From NCBI GenBank assembly GCA_009784345.1, contig WRBW01000003.1:1-52760 (forward strand): a stretch of 52,760 bases of DNA, written 5' to 3'. Below, in pieces: positions 5,113 to 49,507 of the stretch (positions are counted from its first letter, which is position 1; every line of letters begins with the position of its first letter). The position numbers and the translations under genes are program-made. The DNA comes from Coriobacteriia bacterium. Lineage in GTDB: Bacteria > Actinomycetota > Coriobacteriia > WRKU01 > WQUG01. Under the pieces are notes generated by a model. The model did no database searches. It had not been told where the DNA came from and was given only the letters and a program-made list of their open reading frames with translations.

Positions 5113-5140
5113 GGAGTGCGTCCAGGTCTGGACACACTCC
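5113..5140 (-). terminator. Terminator-like hairpin after tsf built from two inverted copies of the dispersed motif
   Basis: GGAGTGCGTCCAG and CTGGACACACTCC face each other with 2 bp between them. In the minus-strand transcript this gives a 13-bp stem with one G-U pair; in the plus-strand transcript the same position is a C-A mismatch, so the hairpin fits tsf transcription. It begins 23 bp after the tsf stop and is followed by TCTTCTTATATGTTTT, a modest T-rich tail. Each arm is a copy of the dispersed GGAGTGCGTCCA word. Confidence 0.7.
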
Positions 5141-9635: not shown

Positions 9636-11033
9636 CTATCCTTTTCTCTTCAGTCGCGCACAAAAATGGCCATCAGGGCCACCTGAACTTGGTAATATGT
9701 TCAAAAACCCATCCTTGCCCAGCGCATCCACAAAGGGCGGTGCCACTTCGCTTTCCGTGAAGGGCTCTACTTCATATTCTTTGCCAGCTGCTGTAGCTAA
9801 GAATCGCTCTATGACAGACTGGTTTTCTACCGTAGCAATTGTACACGTTGCATAGAAGAGTCGACCACCTGGTTTCACCAAAGCTGCAGACCAGGAAATC
9901 ATGCGCGAGCCCAGCTTTGCAAGCGCAATCAAGTCATCGGGCGAAAGCTTCCAGCGCTTGTCTGCGCCGCGGCGCAGGGTACCAAGCCCCGAACAGGGTG
10001 CGTCAATCAAAACGCTGTCAAAGGATGGACGCACTCCCCCTGTTAAGAGTCCTTTTTCTAAACGCTCATAAGCTGATTGCTTTTTCACATCTATCGTCAG
10101 ATAGCGTGCTTCCCGAACTCCGTAGCTTTGCGCCGTGCGCAGGGCAACCTGATTCTTGAACTCATACAAATCGAGGCCAACAATCTGTGCAGGCCCGCCG
10201 CGCCTGCGAGCACCCGCTGCCATGACGAGTGACTTTGTGCCGCGTCCGCTGCCGACCTCAAGAAGCTGCTGGTCAGGCTGAGCCTTCACCAAGTCAACTA
10301 CCTGCTGGGCAGCTAGGTCCATTGCTACAAAGGATGCACGCAGCTCTGCCGGCATGGCCCAGAACTTGGCCTGGTCGAGGATCTGATAGGCACCCTCGAC
10401 TCCGGCGGATTTATAGCCAACTTTGGCAGCCTCAAGCGCCGCGAGGGACTGTTTTTCTGACCGCAGAAAGGGCAGCTGCGCGACATACAGAGGCGCTGGC
10501 TCATTATTGGTAGCCATCATTTCACGTGCACGCTTCGCGCCGTACTGGTCTTCCATCAAACGTGCCAGCCACAGAGGGTGACCATAAAGTGTCGCCGCAG
10601 CATTCAAATCTGTCTCAGGGTCGCCCCCCGGAAAGAGCTTCTCGCGCTTTTCGCTGAGCCTGCGTAAGACGGCGTTTGCAAGACCTCGATAAGTCTTTGA
10701 ATTCGTGGCAAAGTAGGCCAGCTCTACACCTTGGTTCACCACAACGTAGGCCTCGGTCTTTTCGAAAAAGAGCTCATAGGCGGCAAGTGCGAGCGCGTCT
10801 TTCAAATCGTCAGGCGTCGCTTCTGGCTTTGACAATTCGGTCGCAACGAGCTGGTCCAAAGTGCCGCGCGTGGCAATAGTGCCGTAGGCAAGCCGTGTGG
10901 CAAAGGCCTTGTCGCGCGGGTCTATGTTGGCGCCCACTAGTGCAGACTGCATGGCCTCTGCTGCATAGGACTGCTTTTCGCGCACCCGCTTGATAACCTT
11001 AAAGGCGAGCCGCCGTGCGGGACTTAAACCCAT
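9636..11033 (-). CDS. rsmB: 16S rRNA (cytosine-967-C5)-methyltransferase RsmB
   Basis: 465 residues. An N-terminal NusB-like RNA-binding domain (about 1-140, SPARRLAFKVIKRV) precedes a Rossmann methyltransferase domain. The SAM loop is LEVGSGRGTKSL; the two catalytic cysteines are in DAPCSGLG and YATCTIA. The start at 11033 overlaps the end of fmt (ATGGGTTTAA carries both) and is preceded by AAGGACGG inside fmt, which indicates translational coupling. A copy of the dispersed word (10026-10037) encodes GVRP here. Confidence 0.93.
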   Translation of the reverse strand: MGLSPARRLAFKVIKRVREKQSYAAEAMQSALVGANIDPRDKAFATRLAYGTIATRGTLDQLVATELSKPEATPDDLKDALALAAYELFFEKTEAYVVVNQGVELAYFATNSKTYRGLANAVLRRLSEKREKLFPGGDPETDLNAAATLYGHPLWLARLMEDQYGAKRAREMMATNNEPAPLYVAQLPFLRSEKQSLAALEAAKVGYKSAGVEGAYQILDQAKFWAMPAELRASFVAMDLAAQQVVDLVKAQPDQQLLEVGSGRGTKSLVMAAGARRRGGPAQIVGLDLYEFKNQVALRTAQSYGVREARYLTIDVKKQSAYERLEKGLLTGGVRPSFDSVLIDAPCSGLGTLRRGADKRWKLSPDDLIALAKLGSRMISWSAALVKPGGRLFYATCTIATVENQSVIERFLATAAGKEYEVEPFTESEVAPPFVDALGKDGFLNILPSSGGPDGHFCARLKRKG

Positions 11034-12130
11034 GTTAAACCGTCCTTCGCTGGAAATCCGTTCAGCCAATCTGCTGCTGGCATGACTTTTTTGCCGTCAG
11101 GCTTGACCTCAATCAACTCGACACTGCCGTCTGCACAGCCCAGGTAAACACGTCGCGTACCCGAACTTTTGACCAGGCTCACCTGACCTTTGCGGAGTGC
11201 GTCCACACCCCTTGACTCACTGCCTTCTTGAGATTCTTCGACGCGCTGCGCTCGTTCAAGGTGAAGAGGTGAAGCTTCTTCCGAATACTTTATTGCTTCG
11301 AGGATGGTCGCACCCTTGCCCTCTATTTCAAGGCGTGCGGGTGCGTGAACGCTGCTTGCGCGAACACGGCGCAAGAAAGTTTCGACCGTCAGGTCGCTAC
11401 TCAGTCGCAGCTCTGCCTTTTCAATCTTGTCAGCATAGCTGACCTGGGACTCATCTTGAACGGTCCAGGCAGCAGACCTGCCCAGGATGCTTGGGATCAA
11501 GTCAACCAGCAGTTGCCCACCCAGTACGGCTAGTTCGCGACGCAGCTGCGGGGCTGTTTTGCTGGCAACTTCGGTCATCGCCACACCGCAGTAAGGTCCC
11601 GTATCGAGACCCGCCTCCATGTACATGATGCTGACACCGGTATGGCTGTCTCCTTCAAGAATGGCACGCTCAATTGGTGCTGCACCGCGCCATCTGGGCA
11701 AAAGCGATGCGTGAACATTGATGCATCCTGCAGCAGGAATATCGAGCACCTCTTGTGGCAAAATCATGCCGTAGGCAGCAACGACAATCAAGTCGGGCTT
11801 GAGCTCTGCAAGCTCTTTTTGAACCTCTTCATCACGCAGACTTGTTGGCCTGTGCAGGTTGATGCCGCGATCGATGGCTAGCTTGCTGACCTCGCTGGGT
11901 ACGGGCTTGCTACCCCTTTTTGATACGGCATCGGGCCGTGAATAGACGGCAACGACTTCGGAAAAGGACAGGGTGTCGAGCATAATGCGCAGTACATCTG
12001 CTGCAAAATCGGGGGTTCCCATAAAGACGATGCGAGCCTTGGGTGCAATAAAGGCTGGCCGATCAATGCGCTCGGCCAAATGGTTAATATTGTCATAATT
12101 TGACATTATGGGGATGAAGCGCTCAAACAT
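11024..12130 (-). CDS. fmt: Methionyl-tRNA formyltransferase
   Basis: 368 residues, slightly long because of about 30 extra residues before RIVFMGTPDFA. Formylates initiator Met-tRNA with 10-formyl-THF. The catalytic N-terminal domain has NVHASLLPRWRGAAPI, the family signature with the active-site Asn and His, and AYGMILPQEVL. The C-terminal OB-like domain binds tRNA. The ATG at 12130 follows GAAGGAGTAACAGAG, supporting the long N-terminus. In the linker between SEEASPLH and the end, SRGVDALRKG is encoded by a copy of the dispersed word (11194). It sits between def and rsmB, a common order. Confidence 0.95.
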   Translation of the reverse strand: MFERFIPIMSNYDNINHLAERIDRPAFIAPKARIVFMGTPDFAADVLRIMLDTLSFSEVVAVYSRPDAVSKRGSKPVPSEVSKLAIDRGINLHRPTSLRDEEVQKELAELKPDLIVVAAYGMILPQEVLDIPAAGCINVHASLLPRWRGAAPIERAILEGDSHTGVSIMYMEAGLDTGPYCGVAMTEVASKTAPQLRRELAVLGGQLLVDLIPSILGRSAAWTVQDESQVSYADKIEKAELRLSSDLTVETFLRRVRASSVHAPARLEIEGKGATILEAIKYSEEASPLHLERAQRVEESQEGSESRGVDALRKGQVSLVKSSGTRRVYLGCADGSVELIEVKPDGKKVMPAADWLNGFPAKDGLTWV

Positions 12131-13458: not shown

Positions 13459-15969
13459 CTAATCTACCCTCTCCTCGGGATCAAAGTCATCATCGTAGTC
13501 CTGATCAAAGTCAGCATCAAAATCTGCCTCTGCCTCGTCCTCGAAATCGTCCTCGTCATAATCATCGGGATTTCTCAGCCGGGCAAGGCCTGCACTGTCA
13601 ATCAAAACTTCGCGGGGTTTCGAGCCGTCTGGCGGCCCAACTACCCCTCTAGAATGTAACATATCCATGATGCGCCCTGCACGAGAATAACCCACAGAGA
13701 AGCGTCTTTGAATGCCGCTGGTCGACCCAAAGCCGGCAGCAACCACCATTTCAGCCGCGTCCCACAGCAGGGCGTCTTCTTCACCGGCACTGTCAGAGCC
13801 GTCAGAACCATCAGCTCCTGATACCGCGACATCGAAAATCGATTCGTCATAGGTGACGTCTCCTGCTTGATCGCGCAAGAATCCGACAGCCGCCTCGATT
13901 TCGTCTTCTGAGACATAGCAGCCCTGGATGCGCTTGGGCTCAGGCCAGGACGGAATCGAGAAGAGCATATCACCCAGACCTGTCAGCTTTTCTGCACCAG
14001 AAACGTCCAAAATAACACGTGAGTTACTGGCAGTCGCCGTTCTAAAGGCAACACGGTTGGTAATATTTGCCTTGATTTGACCGGTCACAACATTGGCATC
14101 AGGTCGCTGCGTTGCCACAATCAGGTGAATACCTGCTGCACGTGCCAGCTGGGCAATCTGAACAATGGATGACTCGACTTCTTTTGCTGCCTTGTCCATC
14201 AGATTTGCGAGCTCATCGATGACGATGACCAAATAGGGCAGCTCAAGAGCATCCTCGCCATGCTTGCCATCGATGACGGCCTGATTGTATTCCCCAATGT
14301 TTCGGGCTCGATGCTTTTCAAGCGTCGCCAGACGTCTTTCCATCTCTCCCACAGCCCAGGCAAGAGCAGATGCCGCCTTCTTCACGCTGGTCACAACGGG
14401 CACCTTCAAGTGCGGAAGACCATTAAACATCGAGAACTCAACACGCTTGGGATCAATCAGAATCAGGTTTACTTCAGCAGGTGTTGCCCGCATAATCATC
14501 GTCATAATCATCGAGTTGACTGCGACCGATTTACCCGACCCCGTAGCACCAGCAACCAGCAGGTGTGGCATGCTCGCAAGATTGCGGGCAATGCTTGCGC
14601 CGGTGACATCACGCCCAAAGTACAGGGTCAAAGGCCCGTCGCCTGAATCTGTCGGCTTGATTACATCGCCCAAGGTAACAGAAGAGCGGCTCGCATTAGG
14701 CACCTCGACGCCCACCAAGCTCTCGCCAGGAATCGGCGCCAGAATACGAATCGTCGGAGCCGCCAGTGCATAGGCCAGATTGTCATTAAGCGCCGTCACC
14801 TTATTCATTTTAACGCCACTGGCAATGTCAACCTTGTACAGGGTGACCGTCGGGCCCACAATCCAGTCAACTACCTGGGAATCAACACCGAATTCGCGGA
14901 GTGTGTCCACCAGCAGATCTGCCGTTGCCTGCTGTTGCGCCTCTGCCTCCGGAGAGTTTTCATCGAAGTCTGCCGTTCCTTTTTTGAGCAAGTCCATGGC
15001 TGGCAAGACAAAGCCTTCAAGCGCGCGTGGCGCCGTCGTATTATGCGCCAGAACTTCAGTAACGGCTGCGGCAGGCTCGATAACCTCAGTCGCCTTTTCT
15101 TCTGCCGGCTTCTTTTTCTTGCCCTTTAAGACCTGGGTGCGCTCGAGTTCATCCTCATCATCGTCGAGCAGCGTGGTCGGGGCATTATCAAGGGTATTTA
15201 TTCCGGGACTCTTGCGTCTACCCGTGGTGCGAGCAGGAGCATCGTCAGGCTCCTGTGCTGCCAGCTTTTCTGTGCGTGGCATAAGGGCTGCCTTTTCAGC
15301 CTGTGCGTAGGCGCGCTCTTCTGCGCGGTCTGCACGCCAGTCTGAAAGCCACTCGAATACTGCTGACAGCGAAAAGCCCGTGATGATGAGACCAATGAGT
15401 CCTAGTGCAATGAAGATGACATAGGAAATCGCGGTGCCCGCAAGAGCATGTACCGCCCAGGCAAGAGCATTGCCTAGGTAACCACCATGTGACTGCAAGG
15501 TAGCAGATTCAAAGGGCGTAGCCTGCGCTGCACTAACCGCAACGAGCCCCACTACACCTATGACGGCAAGCAAAAAGAGCGACAAGCCTACCGCAAAACG
15601 CATTTCAGAAAAGCGCAGAGCGGGAATGAAAAAGGTAAGACCCATGATTATCAGTACAAAGGGCAAGACAAAGCGACCAAGTCCGATGAGAAGACCCAGC
15701 CCCATGTCGATAAAGCCCGTAGCAACCCCGGTCAGTATCCCAAAGACAGGCAAGATAACGCTCAGGGCAAGCACCGTACCTAAAGTAACGAGGACTATGC
15801 CCCATATGTCAGAAGCTGCACGCTCATCAATCAGGGGGCTGCGCTGCGCCTTCTTACTTGCACGCCCCGTCTTTTGTGAGCCCGTGCGTGAACTGGCAGC
15901 TTTGGACGCACTCCCCCTGCTGCCGGTTCGTGAGCCACTTTTACTCTGAGTTTTTTTCTTTGCTGACAC
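13459..15969 (-). CDS. ftsK: DNA translocase FtsK/SpoIIIE
   Basis: 836 residues. A basic Ser/Lys-rich start is followed by four or five transmembrane helices (about 50-205) and a variable linker. The RecA-like motor (about 440-740) has Walker A VAGATGSGKS and Walker B VIVIDELANL. A C-terminal winged-helix gamma domain ends the fold (SRAGRIMDMLHSRG), which reads KOPS-like sequences, and an acidic Asp/Glu tail follows. Pumps DNA at the septum in division. Two copies of the dispersed word lie in it: one encodes GSAS near the N-terminus (15903) and one VDTLRE (14898). Confidence 0.95.
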   Translation of the reverse strand: MSAKKKTQSKSGSRTGSRGSASKAASSRTGSQKTGRASKKAQRSPLIDERAASDIWGIVLVTLGTVLALSVILPVFGILTGVATGFIDMGLGLLIGLGRFVLPFVLIIMGLTFFIPALRFSEMRFAVGLSLFLLAVIGVVGLVAVSAAQATPFESATLQSHGGYLGNALAWAVHALAGTAISYVIFIALGLIGLIITGFSLSAVFEWLSDWRADRAEERAYAQAEKAALMPRTEKLAAQEPDDAPARTTGRRKSPGINTLDNAPTTLLDDDEDELERTQVLKGKKKKPAEEKATEVIEPAAAVTEVLAHNTTAPRALEGFVLPAMDLLKKGTADFDENSPEAEAQQQATADLLVDTLREFGVDSQVVDWIVGPTVTLYKVDIASGVKMNKVTALNDNLAYALAAPTIRILAPIPGESLVGVEVPNASRSSVTLGDVIKPTDSGDGPLTLYFGRDVTGASIARNLASMPHLLVAGATGSGKSVAVNSMIMTMIMRATPAEVNLILIDPKRVEFSMFNGLPHLKVPVVTSVKKAASALAWAVGEMERRLATLEKHRARNIGEYNQAVIDGKHGEDALELPYLVIVIDELANLMDKAAKEVESSIVQIAQLARAAGIHLIVATQRPDANVVTGQIKANITNRVAFRTATASNSRVILDVSGAEKLTGLGDMLFSIPSWPEPKRIQGCYVSEDEIEAAVGFLRDQAGDVTYDESIFDVAVSGADGSDGSDSAGEEDALLWDAAEMVVAAGFGSTSGIQRRFSVGYSRAGRIMDMLHSRGVVGPPDGSKPREVLIDSAGLARLRNPDDYDEDDFEDEAEADFDADFDQDYDDDFDPEERVD

Positions 15970-22447: not shown

Positions 22448-23116
22448 TCAAACAGCAGCAGCTCTTGCCACCATGTCTTGATAGGCTGCAGCTGGGTCAT
22501 CTGCTTTATAGAAAGCATTTCCCGCAACAAAGCAAGCTGCCCCTTGTGCAGAGCACAGTCCGATGGTGTCAGGATTTATGCCCCCATCAACCTGAATAAG
22601 CGGAGTGCGTCCAGCGCTCTCGCACATTGCCTTGAGCTCTCGCAAACGGTCAACCGTTTCAGGTATGAAGGACTGCCCAGAAAAGCCTGGATAGACCGAC
22701 ATGATAAGTATCATGTCAACACAGTCTAGATAGGGCTCAAGACTTGAGACGCAGGCGTCAGGCTTTATCGACAAGCCGAACTTCTTACCACGTGAGTGGA
22801 CGCACTCCGCCATCTTATTAACATCATTGGCAGCTTCGAGGTGAACGGTGATGTAGTCACAGCCGGCGTCGAGGTACCACTCGATGGTTTCGTCGGGGTT
22901 TTCAATCATCAGGTGTGCGTCAAAGACAAGATTTGATATCGGGCGCAGGGCCGCTATGACGGGAGGTCCAAAGGTCAGGTTGGGCACAAAGTGGCCGTCC
23001 ATGACGTCGAGGTGAATCCAAGGACAGCCGGCGTTTTCTGCCGTCTTGAGCGCAGCTGCAAGCTTGGTGAAGTCTGCCGACAAGAGCGACGGCGAAATGA
23101 TAATTGATTGAGACAT
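22448..23116 (-). CDS. rpe: Ribulose-phosphate 3-epimerase
   Basis: 222-residue TIM-barrel enzyme interconverting ribulose 5-phosphate and xylulose 5-phosphate. It has SPSLLSADF, the metal site WIHLDVMDGHFVPNLTFG, MSVYPGFSGQSFI and the phosphate-binding VDGGIN. Two copies of the dispersed word lie within 200 bp of each other here (22602 and 22797). One encodes AGRTP and the other AECVH, in different frames of the same gene. It stands between gpsA and the membrane protein. Confidence 0.96.
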   Translation of the reverse strand: MSQSIIISPSLLSADFTKLAAALKTAENAGCPWIHLDVMDGHFVPNLTFGPPVIAALRPISNLVFDAHLMIENPDETIEWYLDAGCDYITVHLEAANDVNKMAECVHSRGKKFGLSIKPDACVSSLEPYLDCVDMILIMSVYPGFSGQSFIPETVDRLRELKAMCESAGRTPLIQVDGGINPDTIGLCSAQGAACFVAGNAFYKADDPAAAYQDMVARAAAV

Positions 23117-26565: not shown

Positions 26566-28041
26566 TTATGCTTCGTCTTTGAGTGCCTGTGCGGCGGCGG
26601 CAATCTGCGCGGTCAGCCCGGCAACACCCGTCTGGTAAAAGGCGATGTGAACGGGTCTACCCTGACCGCAGGTGCGGAGCTCATCAATCAACTGCTGCGC
26701 CGTATAATCATCAAGGGTAATGCCGTCATCATTGAAGATACAGTCAGGAATGAGATAGCGATGCTTTTCGACTCCAGCGTGACCCTCTTCATGCAAGTAC
26801 TCGCAATCAAGCTTTACACCGCGCAAAATATCGAGACCTGTGAGAAGCCCCGTCACACTGACATTGCCGCCAAAGAAGCGATTCTTTATGGGCAAGAGGC
26901 GCAACTTGCCTCCCGCATTGATGCCACCTAAAACACCTAGCCATGTTTGCGTTAAGAGCTCGCCGCAGACGATGGTTATGGCTTCCTTGCCTGCGTCGGC
27001 AGGCAACATCTTGCCGTCTGGGCCCGATGGCTGAGGGGGCAACAGGGTCAGTGCCGTTGAAAGCTCATCAAGATTATCGCGGACATCGGCAATAAAGTTC
27101 AAAATCATCCCGATGCCATTTTCAAGCTGCGGAAAGCCATCGTAGTATTGCGGTAGCGGGAAGGGCGCGTGGGCATGTACGTAGAACTCATCCGCCAAAT
27201 AGACCCAGGTAAGTCCCGTCTCCTTTTCGTGAGCAAACTGGTAGGTCTGTACTTGGTCGATAACAGACTTGCACCACTCTTCGCGCTCAGCCGGCACCGT
27301 GCTCGCATCTGTCAGCATTTCTTTGAGACGAGCGGGTGCATAGTCCGTGTAGGCCACCGGGACAATACCGACACTCAGGACATGAGCAATGCGCGCCGGA
27401 TCCTGCAAATAAGCAAGTGTCTCATCTAAGATAGCGCCATCATTGACGCCAGGTACCAGCACTATCTGGATATGAAAATCGATACCAGCCTCTATGAGCT
27501 CATCAAAGTTTTCCAATGCAAGATCATGGTTTTTACCCATCAAGCGCGTGCGCACCTCAGGATTTGATGCATGAAAGGACAGACGAAGCGGAGAAATGCG
27601 CTGCTCCACGATACGGTCCTTATCTTCGGGCTTTAAGTTTGTTAGGGTAATAAAGTTTCCCTGCAGGAAAGACAGACGATAGTCATCGTCGCGCATGCAC
27701 AGGGTTTTGCGCGCTGTTGCCGGCAGCTGCCTCATAAAGCAAAAGACGCAGTCGTTCTTGCAGCTGTGGATTTTGTCATAAATCACGTCGTCAAAAACCA
27801 GTCCCCAGCCGTCCTGCAAATTATCGCGCTGCAGCATGACCGTGCGCAGGTCACCGTCAGCGGCTCGAAGCTCGAGCTCGACTTCAGGACCATCGCTTTC
27901 CCACAGCCATTCGATGTAGTCGTGAGCTGGCTTGCCATTGATGGAATGGACGTACTCCCCCGCCGAAATTCCTGCCGCGTCTGCAATCGACCAAGGTTCA
28001 ACAGCTGCAATCAGGGCTGCACGCGTAATCTTAGGATTCAT
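26566..28041 (-). CDS. DUF512 radical-SAM protein with PDZ-like N-terminus
   Basis: 491 residues. The N-terminal PDZ-like domain (about 1-75) is followed by a radical-SAM core with the iron-sulfur cysteines in KIHSCKNDCVFCFMRQL, and a C-terminal DUF512 region (IVCGELLTQ... FFGGNVSVTGLLTG). Biochemical role is unknown; genome neighbourhoods with der and ispH are frequent. The start at 28041 overlaps the end of ispH and has GGAG 6 nt upstream. The PDZ part includes GEYVHSINGK, coded by a copy of the dispersed word (27947). Confidence 0.88.
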   Translation of the reverse strand: MNPKITRAALIAAVEPWSIADAAGISAGEYVHSINGKPAHDYIEWLWESDGPEVELELRAADGDLRTVMLQRDNLQDGWGLVFDDVIYDKIHSCKNDCVFCFMRQLPATARKTLCMRDDDYRLSFLQGNFITLTNLKPEDKDRIVEQRISPLRLSFHASNPEVRTRLMGKNHDLALENFDELIEAGIDFHIQIVLVPGVNDGAILDETLAYLQDPARIAHVLSVGIVPVAYTDYAPARLKEMLTDASTVPAEREEWCKSVIDQVQTYQFAHEKETGLTWVYLADEFYVHAHAPFPLPQYYDGFPQLENGIGMILNFIADVRDNLDELSTALTLLPPQPSGPDGKMLPADAGKEAITIVCGELLTQTWLGVLGGINAGGKLRLLPIKNRFFGGNVSVTGLLTGLDILRGVKLDCEYLHEEGHAGVEKHRYLIPDCIFNDDGITLDDYTAQQLIDELRTCGQGRPVHIAFYQTGVAGLTAQIAAAAQALKDEA

Positions 28042-28989: not shown

Positions 28990-29790
28990 TTAGCGGCTGC
29001 GCTTTGCGTTGTCTGTGCGTGCTACCTCAAAGGAAGCAGCGATGCCCTCCATAACAAGATCCGTCAAGCGTGCTATGCGCTCTTTTTTTGCATATTCAGA
29101 AGCCGGCACCACCTCGTCAGGCACCAAAGCCTCGCCAAAGTGCACGTCAACGGCGGGAAAACGCAGGGTGCGCATACCATCAGGCCTGATGCGATCTGTT
29201 CCCGCAATACCTACGGGCACAACAGGCACATTGTTGCGAATCGCAAGCCAAGCAGCACCACCATGCGCCTCGCCCAAACCGTGGTCTTTGTCCACCATCA
29301 TGTCCTCGTTGCGAATGCGCGTGCCTTCGGGGAAAATCCCAATCGTGTCACCAGCTTTGAGCAAATTCGAGGCCTTGCGCATGGTATCAAGGTCAGCCTT
29401 GTCACGCGAAATGGGCAGTGCGCCCGCCTGGTCGATAATCCAGGCAAGAGGCTTGAATTTCCATAGATTTCGCTTGCCCAAGAGACGCAGCTTAAAGCCG
29501 TAACGGCGCGTCAGGGCAATCACCACAATGGCATCCATATTGCTCAAATGGTTGGGGCTCATGATGTAGGCACCCGTGGGCAGGTTTTCTGCCCCCGTGA
29601 CCCGAACGCGATACATCGGAACAATGATGATGCTTGCCAGAAAAAGCACAAAGGAACGCAGCACCCATTTGGGCTCGCCAGGCTTGCCCTTATCTGCAAG
29701 CGCATGCCTGCGCATGGCTACATGACGAGGCTCTCTGCTCTTCACCTTCGTCTTTTCTGCAGCATCTTTTTGCGGAGTACGTCCACTCAT
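28990..29790 (-). CDS. plsC: 1-acyl-sn-glycerol-3-phosphate acyltransferase (PlsC family)
   Basis: 266 residues. A basic N-terminus and one hydrophobic helix (VLRSFVLFLASIIIVPM) precede the acyltransferase domain. The catalytic NHLSNMD (NHxxxxD) and the glycerol-phosphate-binding FPEGTR are both intact. Its ATG overlaps the cmk stop (ATGA), which implies coupled translation. cmk-plsC-ispH order is familiar in this phylum. The first codons, encoding SGRTP, come from a copy of the dispersed word (29774). Confidence 0.9.
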   Translation of the reverse strand: MSGRTPQKDAAEKTKVKSREPRHVAMRRHALADKGKPGEPKWVLRSFVLFLASIIIVPMYRVRVTGAENLPTGAYIMSPNHLSNMDAIVVIALTRRYGFKLRLLGKRNLWKFKPLAWIIDQAGALPISRDKADLDTMRKASNLLKAGDTIGIFPEGTRIRNEDMMVDKDHGLGEAHGGAAWLAIRNNVPVVPVGIAGTDRIRPDGMRTLRFPAVDVHFGEALVPDEVVPASEYAKKERIARLTDLVMEGIAASFEVARTDNAKRSR

Positions 29791-34759: not shown

Positions 34760-35575
34760 CTATTTCAGGATGAGCCCGACGGGACAGTGGTCGCTCCCGA
34801 AGACTTCTGCGTAGATAGGCGTGTCCTCCACATGAGGCATCAGTGAAGGTGAGCATAGAAAGTAATCAATACGCCAACCTACGTTGTTTGCGCGCGCATT
34901 GGCGCGGTAGGACCACCAGGTATAGAGACCTGGCACATCGGGATTGCGCTCACGCAGCGGATCGGCAAACCCTGTATCAAGGAGCTGAGTCAGCTTGGCG
35001 CGCTCTTCATCTGAAAAACCTGGCTTTCCTCTGTTGGGCTTGGGTCGTGCGAGGTCTATTTCCTCGTGCGCGCAATTCAGGTCTCCCCCAATGATGACGG
35101 GCTTGCTAACTGCAAGTCCTGAAACGAAGCGGCGAAAAGCATCCTCCCAGCGCATCCGAAAGTCAAGCCTGGCGAGCTCTGGTTGAGCATTGGGGGTATA
35201 GACATTGACCACCCAAAAATCTTTGAATTCACAGGCGGTGACCCTGCCCTCGCGGTCAAGGTCGGAGAGATGGACGTACTCCTCCGCCTTGTCATCAATC
35301 ATGGGGTTGTCGCCCGCAAGCTGGGGCGAGTCGACGTAGCGCAAGACGCGCAGAGGCTTTTCTTTCGAAAAGATAGCTGTTCCCGAGTAGCCCTTCTTGA
35401 GGGCGTAAGACCAGCTTTGGTAGTAGCCGGGAAGCTCGAGTTCGACCTGCCCTTCCTGCAGCTTGATTTCTTGCAGCATGAAGAGGTCGGCATCGAGTGC
35501 CTCGAATTGCTCCATGAAGCCTTTGTTGAGGCTCGCGCGTAGACCATTAACGTTCCATGAGATGAGTTTTTTCAT
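34760..35575 (-). CDS. Exodeoxyribonuclease III (ExoA/XthA family)
   Basis: 271 residues. AP endonuclease/3' exonuclease of base-excision repair. Motifs of the EEP superfamily are all present: [19 protein letters not shown] with the metal-binding Glu, [13 protein letters not shown], and GSDHCPVGL with the catalytic Asp-His. A dispersed-word copy (35271) encodes EEYVH. It stands between infA and the protease, so together these two interrupt the usual map-infA order. Confidence 0.93.
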
Positions 35576-39491: not shown

Positions 39492-39568
39492 CTTTCATCT
39501 TTCTTTAAGGTTTTTTTCATCTTTCTTTCATCTTTTTTTAAGCTTTCTTTCATCCTAGATTAATCCTA
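39492..39568 (+). promoter_or_regulatory. Array of 11-bp direct repeats upstream of the adhesin gene
   Basis: Seven contiguous 11-bp units start at 39492, 39503, 39514, 39525, 39536, 39547 and 39558. The first six read CTTTCATCTTT, CTTTAAGGTTT, TTTTCATCTTT, CTTTCATCTTT, TTTTAAGCTTT and CTTTCATCCTA; the seventh is degenerate. One unit per helical turn is the mark of OmpR/PhoB-family response regulator sites. The last unit covers the -35 position of a TATGAT promoter. The same unit, in the same phase, stands upstream of comF. Confidence 0.65.
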
Positions 39569-39591
39569 GGTAAAAGTCCTTCCCTTATGAT
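39563..39591 (+). promoter_or_regulatory. Promoter of the adhesin gene
   Basis: TATGAT at 39586-39591 is a good -10. The -35 slot (39563-39568, ATCCTA) is poor and is filled by the last 11-bp repeat, which fits activator-dependent transcription. Start of transcription would be near 39598, which excludes the earlier ATG at 39601 as a useful start. Confidence 0.55.
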
Positions 39592-39648
39592 TCCTTTCAC
39601 ATGCCCGACAGAACCTGCGCCCAGAATGCACAGCAGAAAGGAACAGTC

Positions 39649-42600
39649 ATGTCCTTCATCATGAAACGTATTGCTGCAAAAGAAGGCATTGCCCTGGTGC
39701 TCATCGCCACCTTCATAGTGAGCATGCTTGCCTCGGCTGCACTGCCCCAGCGTGCAGATGCCGCCGTTCCTCCCGCGACGCGAGCCTTTGCCACGCAAAG
39801 CGGACATACGGGACCCATCGTGCATAGCTCTGGCACGCTGCCTGCCTACTGCCTTGATCATGGCGCAGCCTCCCCCAATGGCAGGACGCTGACAAGGGGA
39901 GCCAAGCTTTCTCGTGCTACGGGTAGTGTCGAGCAGTCCATTTCGAAGGCCATTGATCTAGGTCCACAAAACCTGAGCAGCAGAACTACCATTAACGGTG
40001 TCAGCTTGAGTAATCTCGAGTGGCGCATGGCGACGCAACTTGCCATCTTTCGTCTGCAGGGTGAGAGCCTTCTCTACAGCAGAAATACCAATCACTGGAG
40101 GGCCTCCACCTGGATTGTGAACCAGGCGACGAGCACCAGTCGCGTTCAGCTCAACCGCTACTGGATCTACCGTCCACCTGCAGGAAGCGGCATTCAAAGG
40201 ATGACCTTTTCCTGGGGCGACCCCCTCACGTCTCGCATTCGCGTACAAAAAACAGATGCGACATCTGGAGCGCTCCTCGCTGGGGCAAGCTTCGGGATAT
40301 GGTCAAACTCCTCCGCTGCTGCTGCGGGAAACACGGGCGCTGCAAGCTTCATAGGACGGGCAAGTTCAGATGCAAGCGGGCAGGCGTGGTGGTATCGCAT
40401 CCCTGTTGGCACAACTTACTATGTCAGAGAGCTTGCTCCACCTGCTGGCTATACCCTCAATACCGCCGTGCTGAGCGTCACCCCGGTGCTGGGAGACGAC
40501 TCTGAAGCGGCACAGGGCAGCCTTCCCCAGTACCTTGCGGGGACTATCGCAAATCAGCGTGCCGCCATTCACAGGATTGAGCTGACTAAAGAGTCGGTGT
40601 CGCCTGGGAGCCAGATCAGTGCTGAAGCCGTGCGGGGTAACCCCGCCTACCAACTGTCAGGAGCACAGTATGGCGTATGGACCGACAGGGCAGCGGCAGA
40701 CAGCAGAAACCTTAATCACCCCTCGATTGTTGGGCGGATGACGACAGACAGTCAGGGCCGAGCCTCGCTGTCAGGGCTGCTGCCAGGTACTTATTTTGTT
40801 CGAGAGTTCATACCGCCGGCTGGTCATGCCCTTGACTTGCAGACGCACAGCGTCACCTTGAGCGCCCTTGCTGGTGGCAGCAGTTTCACCGGCAGGGTCA
40901 GTTCTCAAGATGCGCGTCGCTATGGTGGCAACCTGGTCATTCAGAAAGTTGATGGTGAAACGGGTCTGGCGCAAGCACGTCCCGGTACGAGTCTCGCGGG
41001 GGCAGAATTCGAGATCAGATGGCCTGACCAGCAAGCACCAAGCGGCTGGACAACCCAAACGGTCAGTACCAACGCTGCGGGACGAGCAGTATATCAAGCA
41101 ACAGGGCCGTCAGCGCCCGGGATTCCGATTGGGAACTTTCAAATAAGAGAAACGAAGGCGCCACCGGGCTACCTCATTAGTCCTGAGTATAGCAATTGGA
41201 GAAGCTTCCAGGTGTCAGATTCTCCTGCTGCAGATAGGCCCCCTGAAATAGCCTTGTCTGCCCTGCTTTCCCCCATTGAGGAGCCCATCATAAGGGGAGA
41301 CCTTTCCCTTTTCAAATATGGCAGCGTGAGCGACCAAGGTGTTGAAACGAGTTTCGCCCTTGAACATATCCGCTTTGACCTTATTGACAACATGCCTTTG
41401 GGTGGTGATGGAAGACCCAATCCGCGCTTCGGACAGATTGTTGGAACTCTTTTCACTGACGAAGAAGGCAGAGCAAGCACCCGCGACCTGATACCTGATA
41501 GTGCCAGCTGGGGCAAGACAGATTACCGCAGTGGCTACCTTGAATATGGCGACTACATCTTAAGTGAAGATGCATCAACGACACCGATAGGTCTTCAGGC
41601 TGCAGATGACATGAGCTTCTCTATCACGGAAAACGGAGTTGAGCTGCACTACCTTATCTGCAATAAAGAAATCACGGCTTACTTGAGTATCGTCAAGCGC
41701 GATAGCGAGACCCTCAATACCATTGCCGTGAGCGGAACACGCTTTGACCTACTTAATTCAAACAAGGACGTCATAAGTCGCCTCACTACCGATGAGACCG
41801 GTCACGTACACCTGCCCGAAGTGCTCAAGCATGGCAACTACTATCTTCAGGAAGTACAGGCGCCGGACCGCTACCTCCTGCATACCGAGCCCATAGCCTT
41901 TAGCGTGGACAAAATTAGGGGGCTCGATAATCCCATCGTCATATGCGTCGACAACGACCCCGCAAAAGCAGCTCTTCGCGTTGTCAAAACTGACAGCATA
42001 ACAGCAACAGCCGTACCCGATACGGTCTTTGAAGTCAGAGCTAAAGATGATGTTGTAACCGGCGACGGAACCCTGCGCCTTGCCGCAGGAGAGCTTGCCG
42101 ACATTATCAGTACTGACGCAAGCGGCATTGCCGAAAGCATCCCCCTTTATCTGGGAAGCTACGAGATGCGCGAAGTAAAGACGACGCCTCATTACTTGCT
42201 CAACACGACCGTTTTTGACGTCAAGCTAGAGTACCAGGACCAAAACACAGCTCTTGTCTGGACTGAGGTCCCGGTACAAAATGAGCCCGTGCAGATCAGT
42301 TGCGAGATTGAAAAGCGCACGATATCCATTAGCTCTGCAGCCTATCGCTCTGGCGCAGGAGACGAGGTGCAGATTGATAATAGCGCGCAGGGCAGCAAAG
42401 AGCTCTATCGCTACGACCTCGATTTTTGGTCGACTTCGAACGACTGGGCAGATGAATTCGTTGTTTTTGACGCCTTAGAGGGAGTAGGTGCAGACCAGAT
42501 TCGCTTGCACGAATTGTGGACTCCTATCGTGAAGGGAGACACAAATGGACTTTACAACCTGTGGTATCAGACCAATCTGGCGAGCCAGGAGGTGACGCAG

Positions 42601-43263
42601 AGCTCTGTCAAGGCTGCTTCAAAGGACCTCTTTAACCCTGACAATCCTGAAGCAATCATGCGTTTTGAAAACCACGGCTGGGTACTGTGGTCAGAAGATC
42701 TTGATGCGAGTACGCGCATGCATTTCAAGGTCGATGACCTCAATCTTTCAGAGGGTGAGCACATTACAGGCCTCAAGCTGGAATTTGGACGGGTCGAGAA
42801 AGGCTTTACGAGCCTTGACGATTCCGGGGATTTGGCGCCTTTGAGCTATCTCGTGTACTGTCCGCGTCCCCTACCCAAATATGATGACACGGGTGCTGAA
42901 GTCATCATTTACAACTCGGCAAGCTCCCACATAACCCGCAACATTGTCCTCTTTGATGATGCCGCAGATACCGTCGAGACGAGACTTGTCGAAAGCTTCA
43001 ACTTAGAGCCAGCAATCCAGCCACAGCAAGAACAGCGTTTTGGCGAACGCTTGGTAGAAAACGACGCCTACCCTCGGGGTGACAAAGGCTATGGTAGCCA
43101 ACTCATTGACCCGAATCTGCAACACCGCATCACTGCCCACGGGCCTGCGACCCATGACCTCTTTGATGCTGGATTCTGGTTCGCCTTAGCAGCCGCATCA
43201 GCTTTTGGCGTGCTTGCCTGTCTGCTCGAGATGTATCTACGAAAAAGAGAGGAGGGTCAGTAG
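39649..43263 (+). CDS. Thioester-domain and Cna_B-repeat surface adhesin without LPXTG
   Basis: 1204 residues. Signal peptide ends near PQRADA. The N-terminal domain (about 30-190) carries a Cys in AYCLDHGA and the motif WRMATQLAIF; these are the Cys and Gln of the internal thioester (TQXA) class of adhesins. At least six Cna_B/SpaA-type repeats follow, each starting with a Lys such as RVQKTDATSGALLAGASF, SIVKRDSETL or RVVKTDSITA. Their partner Glu lies in VRELAPPAGY, VREFIPPAG, IRETKAPPGY, LQEVQAPDRY and MREVKTTPHY. A further beta-rich part precedes a single transmembrane helix (FWFALAAASAFGVLACLLEM) and a short basic tail. No LPXTG lies before it. Start at 39649 behind AAAGGAACAGTC. Confidence 0.9.
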   Translation: MSFIMKRIAAKEGIALVLIATFIVSMLASAALPQRADAAVPPATRAFATQSGHTGPIVHSSGTLPAYCLDHGAASPNGRTLTRGAKLSRATGSVEQSISKAIDLGPQNLSSRTTINGVSLSNLEWRMATQLAIFRLQGESLLYSRNTNHWRASTWIVNQATSTSRVQLNRYWIYRPPAGSGIQRMTFSWGDPLTSRIRVQKTDATSGALLAGASFGIWSNSSAAAAGNTGAASFIGRASSDASGQAWWYRIPVGTTYYVRELAPPAGYTLNTAVLSVTPVLGDDSEAAQGSLPQYLAGTIANQRAAIHRIELTKESVSPGSQISAEAVRGNPAYQLSGAQYGVWTDRAAADSRNLNHPSIVGRMTTDSQGRASLSGLLPGTYFVREFIPPAGHALDLQTHSVTLSALAGGSSFTGRVSSQDARRYGGNLVIQKVDGETGLAQARPGTSLAGAEFEIRWPDQQAPSGWTTQTVSTNAAGRAVYQATGPSAPGIPIGNFQIRETKAPPGYLISPEYSNWRSFQVSDSPAADRPPEIALSALLSPIEEPIIRGDLSLFKYGSVSDQGVETSFALEHIRFDLIDNMPLGGDGRPNPRFGQIVGTLFTDEEGRASTRDLIPDSASWGKTDYRSGYLEYGDYILSEDASTTPIGLQAADDMSFSITENGVELHYLICNKEITAYLSIVKRDSETLNTIAVSGTRFDLLNSNKDVISRLTTDETGHVHLPEVLKHGNYYLQEVQAPDRYLLHTEPIAFSVDKIRGLDNPIVICVDNDPAKAALRVVKTDSITATAVPDTVFEVRAKDDVVTGDGTLRLAAGELADIISTDASGIAESIPLYLGSYEMREVKTTPHYLLNTTVFDVKLEYQDQNTALVWTEVPVQNEPVQISCEIEKRTISISSAAYRSGAGDEVQIDNSAQGSKELYRYDLDFWSTSNDWADEFVVFDALEGVGADQIRLHELWTPIVKGDTNGLYNLWYQTNLASQEVTQSSVKAASKDLFNPDNPEAIMRFENHGWVLWSEDLDASTRMHFKVDDLNLSEGEHITGLKLEFGRVEKGFTSLDDSGDLAPLSYLVYCPRPLPKYDDTGAEVIIYNSASSHITRNIVLFDDAADTVETRLVESFNLEPAIQPQQEQRFGERLVENDAYPRGDKGYGSQLIDPNLQHRITAHGPATHDLFDAGFWFALAAASAFGVLACLLEMYLRKREEGQ

Positions 43264-44186
43264 CCGTAGTTTTGACGCGGGCTCCCATAGTAGAAGCCCG
43301 TACCTTGTGGCCGAAAGGTTTGCGCGCGCAGCTGCTCGACATAATCGCGAGGGTCTGCCCCATCGAGTACCGCACGATAGGCAGAAATCACCGTCGTTAT
43401 ATAGTTGACTCCTTTGGTGCGTCCCTCTATCTTGAGGCTATCGATCCCCGCATTACAGAGGTCATCGATGTGCTCAATCATGTTGAGGTCATAGGGGCTA
43501 AAGATAGTGGTGTATCCGTCATCTTCAATGACGGGAATGCTTTCGTTAGGGCGCTTTTTTTCAACGAGCTCATAGGACCAGCGGCAACTGTGAGCGCACT
43601 GACCTTTGTTTGCGTCTCTGTCAGCAAGATAGTTACTGATGATGCAGCGCCCACTAATAGCCATGCATTGCGCACCATGCACAAAGACCTCGAGCTGCAT
43701 GTCCTCAGGCAGGTTCTTGCGAAGCTCTGTCAGTTCACGTAAGTCAAGTTCACGTGCAGCAACGATACGCCTCGCACCTGCCTCGTACCAAGTCTGAGCA
43801 CTGAGGGAATTGGCAACACTTGCTTGTGTGCTGACATGCAGGTCGATTTCAGGTGCGATCTCGCCTGCTAGCTTTGCAGCCCCCAGATCAGACACTATGA
43901 AGGCATCAACCCCGGTGTCTTTTACGGCACCTAAGTAAGCTCTCAGAGAAGAGAGATCAGATTCATGGATGAGGGCATTGACGGTGAGGTAGATAAGGCG
44001 TTTTCTGGAGTGGACGTACTCCGCCGCGCTTTTCAATTCGTCGACACAAAAATTGGCAGCATTGTAGCGCAGGCCAAAGCTCTTACCGCCACAGTAGACG
44101 GCATCGGCCCCGCAGTCTATGGCGAGCTTAAGCGCCTCGATACTACCTGCAGGCGCCAACAGTTCTGGTCTCTGGTGCGCTCTCAT
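43257..44186 (-). CDS. U32 family peptidase-like protein (truncated C-terminus)
   Basis: 309 residues; relatives (TrhP/RlhA, tRNA ho5U34 or rRNA hydroxylation) are usually 400 or more. The opening [24 protein letters not shown] and the cysteine motif [22 protein letters not shown] are typical, and the family element GTGFYYGSP is reached just before the stop. The final barrel domain is missing. The end overlaps the adhesin stop by 7 bp, so an insertion of the adhesin block may have cut the gene. It overlaps the ATPase stop at its start (ATGA). A dispersed-word copy (44011) encodes AEYVH. Confidence 0.85.
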
Positions 44187-47061: not shown

Positions 47062-47328
47062 GCTTTCGCGCGGCTGACCTGGTCTTTGACCCCACACTCG
47101 CATACTGGAGCTTTTGCTTGATATGATCTCACGACTAACCCTCTCGCCTGCTCCCTCCTGTTGCCAGGAAATCAACGTAGACGGTACGACTTACCCCTAA
47201 GGTGCGCCATGCTCACGTACACTCCTGTCGAGATATACGCTTACGTGGATTCTTTCGGCCGCACCTGCCTATGAACTAACGGGCATCACCTGTGTGACAC
47301 ACGCGCAACCACAGACCCGCGCGAAAGC
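47062..47328 (+). ncRNA. Structured RNA upstream of comF, candidate raiA-motif RNA
   Basis: GCTTTCGCGCGG (47062-47073) is perfectly complementary to CCGCGCGAAAGC (47317-47328), closing a 267-nt region by a 12-bp stem. Inside are further pairings: GGTC/GACC near 47081-47091, GGTGCG (about 47200) with CGCACC (about 47265) around CACGTA/TACGTG, CCTG/CAGG, and CTGTG/CACAG near the 3' end. No long frame runs through it, and GC is higher than in its surroundings. raiA-motif RNAs of about this kind are known upstream of comF-like genes in Actinomycetota. The raiA identity is my guess from location; the structure itself is directly visible. Strand is taken from comF. Confidence 0.65.
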
Positions 47329-47357
47329 TTGACTATTATACACTCTCGCCGCAAAAT

Positions 47358-47401
47358 CTTTAAGCTTTCTTTCACCTTGAGTTAAGGATCCTTTAAGGGT
47401 C
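47358..47401 (+). promoter_or_regulatory. Array of 11-bp direct repeats upstream of comF
   Basis: Four contiguous units, CTTTAAGCTTT (47358), CTTTCACCTTG (47369), AGTTAAGGATC (47380) and CTTTAAGGGTC (47391), match the repeat before the adhesin gene. CTTTAAGCTTT followed by CTTTCA occurs almost identically at 39536-39552. The third unit ends at the -35 position relative to CATACT, as the last unit does at the adhesin promoter. Confidence 0.65.
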
Positions 47402-47413
47402 AGCTGCCATACT
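47385..47413 (+). promoter_or_regulatory. comF promoter candidate
   Basis: CATACT at 47408-47413 could serve as -10, with the 17-bp spacer and -35 slot occupied by the 11-bp repeats. The -35 (AGGATC) is poor, so an activator would be needed. The comF ribosome site GAGGTGAT lies a few bases downstream of the expected start. Confidence 0.45.
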
Positions 47414-47431
47414 GCTTGTGAGGTGATAAAA

Positions 47432-48166
47432 ATGAAGCTCCAGACACAGCTCTTGCAGGCTCCGATTCTCAGCAGTATGAAGGATATACTGGGGGAAATT
47501 GTTGCTCCGACTCGCTGCGCCGGCTGCGAGCGCCAGGGCGCAGTCTTCTGTCCGCACTGCATGGCATCACTGCCCTACCTTTACCTTCAGCACCAGGCTT
47601 GCCCAAAGTGTGCCGGTCCCTATGGTGCGCTGACCTGCACGGAATGTTGGGAAGTAAGTTACAGCTTTAGCCATGCCTTGGCACTGAGCCTGCTTGACGG
47701 CCCACTTGCCCGCGCCATCGTCATCTACAAGGACGGAAATGAGCGGAGGCTGGCTCGCTGCTTTGGAGCTCTGCTGGCGGAGTGCGTCCAAACCACCTGG
47801 TCTGAGTGGCTCGACCCTGATTGTCAAATCAGCTGGATTCCTGCTACGGCTGCTGCTGTTCGAAGGCGTGGCTTTGACCACGGAGAACTGCTTGCTTACG
47901 CCCTATCAAAGCAGCTTAACATTGCGGCACTCCCCCTCTTGTCGCGACCACGCGCACGCGACCAAAGAGGTTTGTCGCGCAAGCAGCGCATGAAGGGGTT
48001 CAAGGAATTTACGGTACAGCCACAAAAAAATAAGCAAGACCTGCACAAGGTCTTGCTTATTGATGATGTCTTTACCACCGGTGCCACCTTAGAAGCAGCA
48101 AGCCTAGCTTTGCTCGAAAATGGTGCTGCAGAAGTTCGGGTCGCTGTATTAGGCCGCGCCTGGTAG
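47432..48166 (+). CDS. comF: ComF family protein (amidophosphoribosyltransferase-like)
   Basis: 244 residues. An N-terminal zinc finger with CAGCERQGAVFCPHC and, later, CPKC and CTEC cysteine pairs. A C-terminal phosphoribosyltransferase fold has SWIPATAAAVRRRGFDH and the PRPP loop VLLIDDVFTTGAT. ComF/ComFC is needed in natural transformation, acting with the helicase ComFA on incoming single strands; no comFA is seen here. The ATG at 47432 follows GAGGTGATAAAA. It is alone on the plus strand between an RNA and mtnA. The dispersed word (47779) encodes AECVQ. Confidence 0.92.
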   Translation: MKLQTQLLQAPILSSMKDILGEIVAPTRCAGCERQGAVFCPHCMASLPYLYLQHQACPKCAGPYGALTCTECWEVSYSFSHALALSLLDGPLARAIVIYKDGNERRLARCFGALLAECVQTTWSEWLDPDCQISWIPATAAAVRRRGFDHGELLAYALSKQLNIAALPLLSRPRARDQRGLSRKQRMKGFKEFTVQPQKNKQDLHKVLLIDDVFTTGATLEAASLALLENGAAEVRVAVLGRAW

Positions 48167-48307: not shown

Positions 48308-49507
48308 CTACTTCATGGTGTGGGGAATTTCTTCTGCTGTAATTACACCCCGCTCGGTGATGTAGCCCTTAATGTATTTTGCTGGTGTCACGTCAAAGGC
48401 AGGGTTAAAGCAGGACACATGCGTGGGGGTATTTTTGAACCATCCATCAAAGGAAAAGCCTCCGCCTTTGCGTGCGATGGACATGTGGTGACCCTTCGAC
48501 AAAGGAAGCTCTGCAGGTCCCTGAGCCGTCATCTTATCAAAGGCAGCAGAGATTTCTGGTGTAGTCGCATCAAAGGTGCCACTGACCGTAATCCCCTCGA
48601 TTTCCTTTTGATCGCGAACCTCGATTTCGATTTGCTTACCTTCTGCAAGCTCCAGATCGAAGGTGGTAGAAGGTGCTGCGATATAGAAAGGAATACCATG
48701 TTCTTTTGCCAGAATCGCAAGACCGTAGGTACCAATCTTATTAGCAGTGTCACCATTGGCACAAATCCGGTCTGCTCCGACGACAACGGCATCAACAAGA
48801 CCTTCTCCCATGACAAAGGCAGCCATATTGTCGCAGATGAGTTGTGAGGGGACGCCTGCAAAGAGGAGCTCCCAAGCCGTGAGTCTACCACCCTGATTAA
48901 CAGGGCGCGTTTCATCAACCCAGACATGCTCGACCTTATCCTGCAAGTGAGCCGAGTATATGACGCCCAGAGCGGTACCATAAAAAGTCGTAGCCAAAGA
49001 ACCTGCATTACAGTGCGTCAAGAATTTGGTCGGACCATCAAAGAGTGCTGCACCAAAGTCTCCCAAGGCACGATTTGCAGCCTCATCTTCTTCCATGACT
49101 TTATGAGCCTCTGCAATTAGTAAGTCCCTGATAGTTTCTGGGTTCATTGAGGATTGGACGCACTCCGCCAAGACAGCGCGAAGCCTGTTGACCTCGCGCG
49201 AGAGGTTCACCGCCGTGGGGCGAGCATCAGCCAGTTCATCACAAACCGTCATGGCTGCAGCCAGGTAGTCATCGCCTGCTGATTCGAAGTCCATGCCTTC
49301 CGTTGCGCTCCACAGGGCTACTCCTAGGGCGCCGGCAGCACCAATGGCGGGGGCGCCACGAACCGCCAGCGTTTTGATGGCAACAATGACGCCTTCGTAG
49401 GTGCTGCACACCAAAATGTCCCCTTGAAGGGGCAGGCGCGTCTGATCAATCATGTGAACGCTCGTGTCTTCCCACCAAATAGTTCTGGGTAGCTGTTCTA
49501 CTGACAT
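48308..49507 (-). CDS. mtnA: S-methyl-5-thioribose-1-phosphate isomerase
   Basis: 399 residues, against about 345-360 usual. Isomerises methylthioribose 1-phosphate in methionine salvage. Key parts: AVRGAPAIGAAGA, the catalytic Cys in THCNAGSLATT and the Asp in VVGADRICANGD, then NPAFDVTPAKYI. Near the C-terminus, between EVRDQKEIEG and NPAFD, about 45 extra residues appear that I do not find in the family pattern. The start follows AAGGAGGAACT. The rest of the salvage pathway is not in this window. A dispersed-word copy (49155) encodes AECVQ. Confidence 0.9.
   Translation of the reverse strand: MSVEQLPRTIWWEDTSVHMIDQTRLPLQGDILVCSTYEGVIVAIKTLAVRGAPAIGAAGALGVALWSATEGMDFESAGDDYLAAAMTVCDELADARPTAVNLSREVNRLRAVLAECVQSSMNPETIRDLLIAEAHKVMEEDEAANRALGDFGAALFDGPTKFLTHCNAGSLATTFYGTALGVIYSAHLQDKVEHVWVDETRPVNQGGRLTAWELLFAGVPSQLICDNMAAFVMGEGLVDAVVVGADRICANGDTANKIGTYGLAILAKEHGIPFYIAAPSTTFDLELAEGKQIEIEVRDQKEIEGITVSGTFDATTPEISAAFDKMTAQGPAELPLSKGHHMSIARKGGGFSFDGWFKNTPTHVSCFNPAFDVTPAKYIKGYITERGVITAEEIPHTMK

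Follow-up and report, generated by a model that had tools for sequence, protein, structure and literature searches.

Introduction

To our knowledge, DNA uptake sequences have so far been reported only in the Neisseriaceae and the Pasteurellaceae. The word that we describe here, GGAGTRCGTCCA, comes from a draft genome of an uncultured family of Coriobacteriia and resembles the Neisseriaceae DUS/ComP system in being a short, many-copy sequence on both strands, in coding as well as intergenic DNA, of a genome that carries competence genes, and in combining a constant inner core with lineage dialects (PMC3630211). It differs in its phylum (Actinomycetota), in its unrelated sequence (core GAG...GTCCA versus CTG), in its lower density and in its association with a Tad pilus rather than a type IVa pilus; whereas the Neisseriaceae have the ComP receptor, we can propose only a candidate receptor, and the role in uptake is one that we infer from sequence. 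The USS of the Pasteurellaceae likewise show a strict core, weakly conserved flanks, and types within the family (PMC12616744), but the word here belongs to another phylum, has another core and a lower copy number, and goes with a regulon box that is not a CRP-S site. The substring AGTGCG that it shares with the Hin-USS is probably coincidental.

Within the Actinomycetota, the nearest described case is Micrococcus luteus, in which ComEA, ComEC, and Tad pili are essential for transformation; the passages of that report considered here mention neither an uptake word nor an 11-bp array (PMC8467076). The genome studied here shares with it ComEA, ComEC, and Tad pili, and differs in that the prepilin peptidase, comM-dprA, and recA share an array. 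Direct-repeat boxes with an 11-bp period overlapping the -35 region are known from PhoB/OmpR-type regulators, the CiaR box (TTTAAG-N5-TTTAAG), and SARP repeats. The arrays reported below are similar in placing direct repeats one helical turn apart over -35 but form longer ladders (4 to 9 units) with competence targets, and for their binding protein there are candidates only. In the open-licence literature we found no description of a competence promoter of this type, which is no proof of novelty, and no paper joining Coriobacteria, natural competence, and DNA uptake.

The comF locus and its RNA neighbor

The window is the whole stretch analyzed, 52,760 nucleotides of contig WRBW01000003.1; the genome to which it belongs (G000) is a 1.48-Mb draft of 85% completeness. 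All genomes compared with it are drafts too, and genes were called by simple ORF choice. Features are listed in Table 1. The product of comF has the zinc ribbon and the phosphoribosyltransferase domain of the ComF family, with PF00156 above the cut-off and DZR_2 and TIGR00201 below it in a family profile search. Judged by its sequence context, the ATG at 47432, behind AGGTGA, is the likelier start. The coding sequence also contains a perfect 14-bp inverted repeat with a 5-nt loop at 48029-48061 (AATAAGCAAGACCT / AGGTCTTGCTTATT).

Table 1. Coordinates of the features in the window
Feature	Position	Strand	Remark
Uptake-like word	5113..5124	+	
Uptake-like word	10026..10037	-	
Uptake-like word	11194..11205	+	
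Uptake-like word	15903..15914	-	
Uptake-like word	22602..22613	+	
Uptake-like word	22797..22808	-	
Uptake-like word	27947..27958	-	Orthologous codons in G039 read GAGCACGTCCA
Uptake-like word	29774..29785	+	
Uptake-like word	35271..35282	-	
Second 11-bp array, 7 units	39493..39570	+	Before surface-protein gene
1220-aa surface protein, thioester (TED) and five SpaA domains	39601..43263	+	Behind 7-unit array
Uptake-like word	44011..44022	-	Orthologous codons in G024 read GAGTACGTCCA
raiA/ModT structured RNA (RF03072)	47065..47325	-	Divergent to comF; full-length model match (cmscan)
11-bp direct-repeat array, 4 units	47359..47403	+	5' of comF; candidate competence-regulon operator
-10-like CATACT	47408..47413	+	+15 from last array unit, the phase of most arrays
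comF (ComFC)	47423..48166	+	Intact ORF, 247 codons; ComF-family and phosphoribosyltransferase matches
Uptake-like word GGAGTGCGTCCA	47779..47790	+	Inside comF
Uptake-like word	49155..49166	-	Inside neighboring mtnA-like gene

The RNA beside comF had been read as novel in the first-pass annotation, a reading that is ruled out by its identity with the Rfam family raiA/ModT: it scored 148.3 bits in cmscan against a gathering threshold of 101.3 (E = 6e-37) over model positions 1-209, that is, above the threshold across the whole model. Its setting is familiar as well, comFC being the commonest published neighbor of raiA and flanking it in 74% of cases (PMC11706538), and the RNA here is likewise a full-length member beside comFC. 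It differs in that genera g1 and g4 of the family studied (G000, G006, and G036) have it divergent to comF. In G009, G021, and G012 it lies downstream of comF, and from the comF loci examined in G024 and G039 it is absent. With the divergent arrangement in two genera and the downstream one in a third (relatives L195 and L198-L201), the family shows a local inversion or relocation. The neighboring RNA is probably not specific to the transformation system.

Arrays with an 11-bp period

The array before comF, TTTAAG-N5-TTTCAC-N5-GTTAAG-N5-TTTAAG, has its TTMA (TT[A/C]A) starts at 47360-47393 and is not among the repeats listed by Tandem Repeats Finder. In 426 kb of G000 there are 8 runs of at least four TTMA units at an exact 11-bp period, and none at periods of 8, 9, 10, 12, 13, or 14 bp. 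Across all of G000, 33 overlapping pattern matches make up 13 arrays, with 0 in the reversed control, and the four-unit pattern revealed further arrays in G024, G006, and G039; reversed controls gave 0 in 9/9 family genomes. The comF genes of G024, G039, and G036 are preceded by array-like repeats, of which some step by 10 bp or consist of different units; no arrays were found before comF in genus g2 or at the other Coriobacteriia comF loci examined.

A -10-like TANNNT stands in a fixed phase to the arrays: in 24 of 28 it lies at exactly +15 relative to the start of the last unit, or at +26, which is one further repeat turn beyond +15 (P about 1e-32 under a base model of 1/64). The element before comF has a C in place of the T and was left out of the 24 counted. 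As direct repeats of 11-bp period that overlap -35, the arrays have the build of OmpR/PhoB-type operators, and, on sequence criteria, they are a promoter family with a putative activator ladder over -35. Four OmpR-type proteins of G000, all with a receiver-like N-terminal half, are candidate regulators.

Transformation genes are prominent among the targets. In G000, arrays precede the Tad pilus cluster, comEA-comEC, comF, recA-recX, yraN-comM-dprA, and the gene for an A24 prepilin peptidase. With about 8 such operons among about 900, both numbers being assumed, the chance that 6 of 13 arrays would fall on them is 6.5e-11. The Tad/Flp pilus genes (L097, 7704-16689) encode RcpC/CpaB, a TadZ-like protein, the TadA ATPase, TadB/TadC, and an Flp pilin; the Flp match was below the cut-off and the TadZ matches were weak, and the A24 peptidase is encoded elsewhere. 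The other targets in G000 are the genes for the TED/SpaA surface protein, three DUF1016-type proteins, a HigB-like, a BrnA-like, and a 112-aa protein. Arrays of G006, from the same genus, precede tad, comF, comM, and an M23-like peptidase gene; those of G024, from another genus (g3), precede tad, comEA, yraN, recJ, a TED-like surface protein gene, an M23-like peptidase gene, and others; and the one array of G039 precedes tad. The names recJ, TED-like, M23, HigB-like, and BrnA-like were given from reading translations rather than from a family search. At the level of sequence, the presence of a transformation regulon is close to certain. Since a similar TED surface protein lies behind an array in G024 too (L227), the TED/SpaA protein looks like a conserved regulon member.

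Two further observations concern the other targets. The arrays before the three DUF1016-type, HigB-like, and BrnA-like genes (L096, 12951-17813; L104, 3584; L225; L226) associate toxin-antitoxin or nuclease genes with a competence promoter type. Among relatives (L240, L235, L233, and L229), arrays also precede genes for M23-like peptidases, recJ, and possibly topA.

A dispersed word with lineage dialects

We counted 239 copies of GGAGTRCGTCCA in the 1.48-Mb draft (121 forward and 118 reverse) and 0 of the reversed control. The window has 8 copies of the 12-mer GGAGTGCGTCCA and 4 of GGAGTACGTCCA, where about 0.01 or less of each is expected. The count of 239 covers the whole genome; context statistics were taken from 422 kb of G000 with 67 copies. 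Of these, 24 run with the gene in which they lie and 20 against it; most are coding, and 20 of 67 are intergenic compared with about 7 expected (10.7% of the DNA is intergenic; P = 1.6e-5). The extended consensus is GGnGGAGTRCGTCCAtnCC, with GGAG and GTCCA nearly fixed and a tolerant center. The density, about one per 6 kb, is below that in Neisseria or Haemophilus; spacing in G000 is not more even than random, inverted pairs at close range, such as could act as terminators, are rare in the 422 kb, and no strand bias with GC skew was seen (32:35; the skew is weak).

Some explanations of the word could be discarded. A role specific to comF is ruled out: the word occurs genome-wide, and the other members of the family that were examined lack it in their comF coding sequence. 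A protein motif is ruled out as the cause, as copies run in either direction, use more than one reading frame, and also lie between genes. A mobile element was rejected at several sites at which orthologous alignments run gap-free through the word, some other sites being gapped; at the gap-free sites, the word therefore arises by substitution.

Among 400 genomes of the class, enrichment of GGAGTRCGTCCA is confined to members of a single family. There, dialects are lineage specific, having GAG...GTCCA in common and differing in their centers: AGTGAGTACGTCCAT in G036, GCGGAGTCTGTCCAT with variants in G024, and GAGCACGTCCA in G039. In whole-genome counts the degenerate core exceeded its control in 6/9 family genomes, among them G036 (228 versus 3), G024 (150 versus 2), G012 (51 versus 5), G039 (44 versus 2), and, modestly, G033 (25 versus 2); in G006, G009, and G021 its count was no higher than that of the control. 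The public metagenome-assembled genome Coriobacteriia bacterium Emb289P1bin20, whose isolate name hints at a termite-gut origin, has 122 copies of the degenerate core versus 12 of the control. Orthologous codons take a GAG...GTCCA form at 4 sites in G024 and G039, namely, GAGTACGTCCA, GAGTCTGTCCA, or GAGGGCGTCCA at three sites in G024 and GAGCACGTCCA at one in G039, and at 0 in G006, G009, G021, and G033. Word and regulon do not always coincide: G006 has machinery and arrays and no word, while G012 has the word and no TTMA array. Given that G006 has the regulon without the word, the two are separable layers. Word-less relatives (L127-L131 and L013) carry other abundant, REP-like repeats (GACAGGGGGACGGTTC-like; ACAGAGGGACGG), and a genome of another family, G027 (L167-L171), carries the repeat GACAGTAGGGTCGGTTCC...TTTT.

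Discussion

The first-pass annotation had three novel signals meet at comF and hypothesized that this gene controls a transformation system, not described before, that recognizes self-DNA. All three signals are real and far beyond chance, but they are unequal. The strongest of them is the 11-bp array, a promoter element common to comF and other transformation operons. The genomic pattern of the word is that of an uptake sequence, but the copy inside comF, 1 of 239, is incidental, and the RNA is not novel. Nor is comF special: it is one regulon member among several. The proposed system itself was largely right, in that comEA, comEC, and dprA, whose absence would have refuted it, are all encoded, together with comF, comM, recA, a Tad/Flp pilus cluster, and an A24 prepilin peptidase, although the specificity of uptake is inferred.

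We therefore favor, with a probability of roughly 0.7, the explanation that comF belongs to a natural-transformation regulon of this uncultured Coriobacteriia family and that the word is its uptake sequence. In this model, the array over -35 would be a binding ladder for a dimerizing winged-helix activator, either an OmpR/PhoB-type response regulator or a SARP-like protein, which, once bound, would bring RNA polymerase to the -10 element at +15 relative to where the last unit starts. The outcome would be joint activation of the Tad pilus, the prepilin peptidase, ComEA-ComEC, ComF, YraN-ComM-DprA, and RecA-RecX. DNA bearing the word would be preferred by a receptor on the cell surface, which is probably one of the Tad minor pilins or a different surface protein, so that kin DNA would be imported and GGAGTRCGTCCA would accumulate in the genome.

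How the word is read depends on several properties taken together. It is dispersed over a genome that encodes competence machinery, is over-represented on both strands, and has a core with dialects; judged by the number and strand balance of its copies, its dialects, and its context, it most likely functions as a DNA uptake sequence. A binding site for a protein of chromosome organization, segregation, or recombination (Chi-, KOPS-, Noc-, or NAP-like), with no link to uptake, would also be dispersed genome-wide, mostly coding, and strict in sequence. We consider this quite unlikely, as orientation is not biased with the admittedly weak GC skew, 12 to 15 bp is long for Chi or KOPS, and the word, unlike essential maintenance sites, varies in dialect by lineage and is missing from some close relatives, including G006 from the same genus; identity with Chi or KOPS was rejected for want of strand bias. 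HIP1-type words are abundant in coding DNA, and their function is not proven. The word shares this abundance, and might similarly owe its persistence to DNA methylation, repair, or mutational drive, but it is not palindromic, its dialects hold a constant core, and its lineage has a full transformation regulon, which leaves such an origin very unlikely.

For the promoter elements, the alternative is that they belong to a general regulon for stress or the envelope, with the com genes as only one part of it. About half of the 13 arrays of G000 precede non-com genes (DUF1016 nucleases, HigB-like, BrnA-like, and the TED adhesin), and recA and recJ are repair genes too; yet nearly every transformation operon has an array, and most targets that recur across genera are transformation genes, the others being the TED adhesin and the M23 peptidase. 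This broader role is possible but doubtful. The RNA could in principle act as a riboswitch-like module regulating comF in cis: it adjoins comF here and at most loci, and Rfam classes it as Cis-reg. Such a role is hardly credible for an RNA that is divergent to comF in three genomes, downstream of it elsewhere, and not in the comF locus examined in G024 or G039, and that in C. difficile, where raiA was renamed ModT, acts as an abundant, independent RNA (PMC11706538).

In conclusion, it seems reasonably likely that the natural-transformation reading describes a third, independently evolved uptake-sequence system, the first in the Actinomycetota, which would work via a Tad pilus, with genus dialects and a dedicated competence regulon on 11-bp ladders. 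If so, self-recognition in transformation would have evolved at least three times, and type IVa pili would not be needed for it; if, in addition, these bacteria are ordinary monoderms, neither would an outer membrane. The dialects, together with cognate Tad minor pilins, would then provide a comparative handle on receptor evolution. Furthermore, the array offers a ready-made list of competence genes for the Coriobacteriia.
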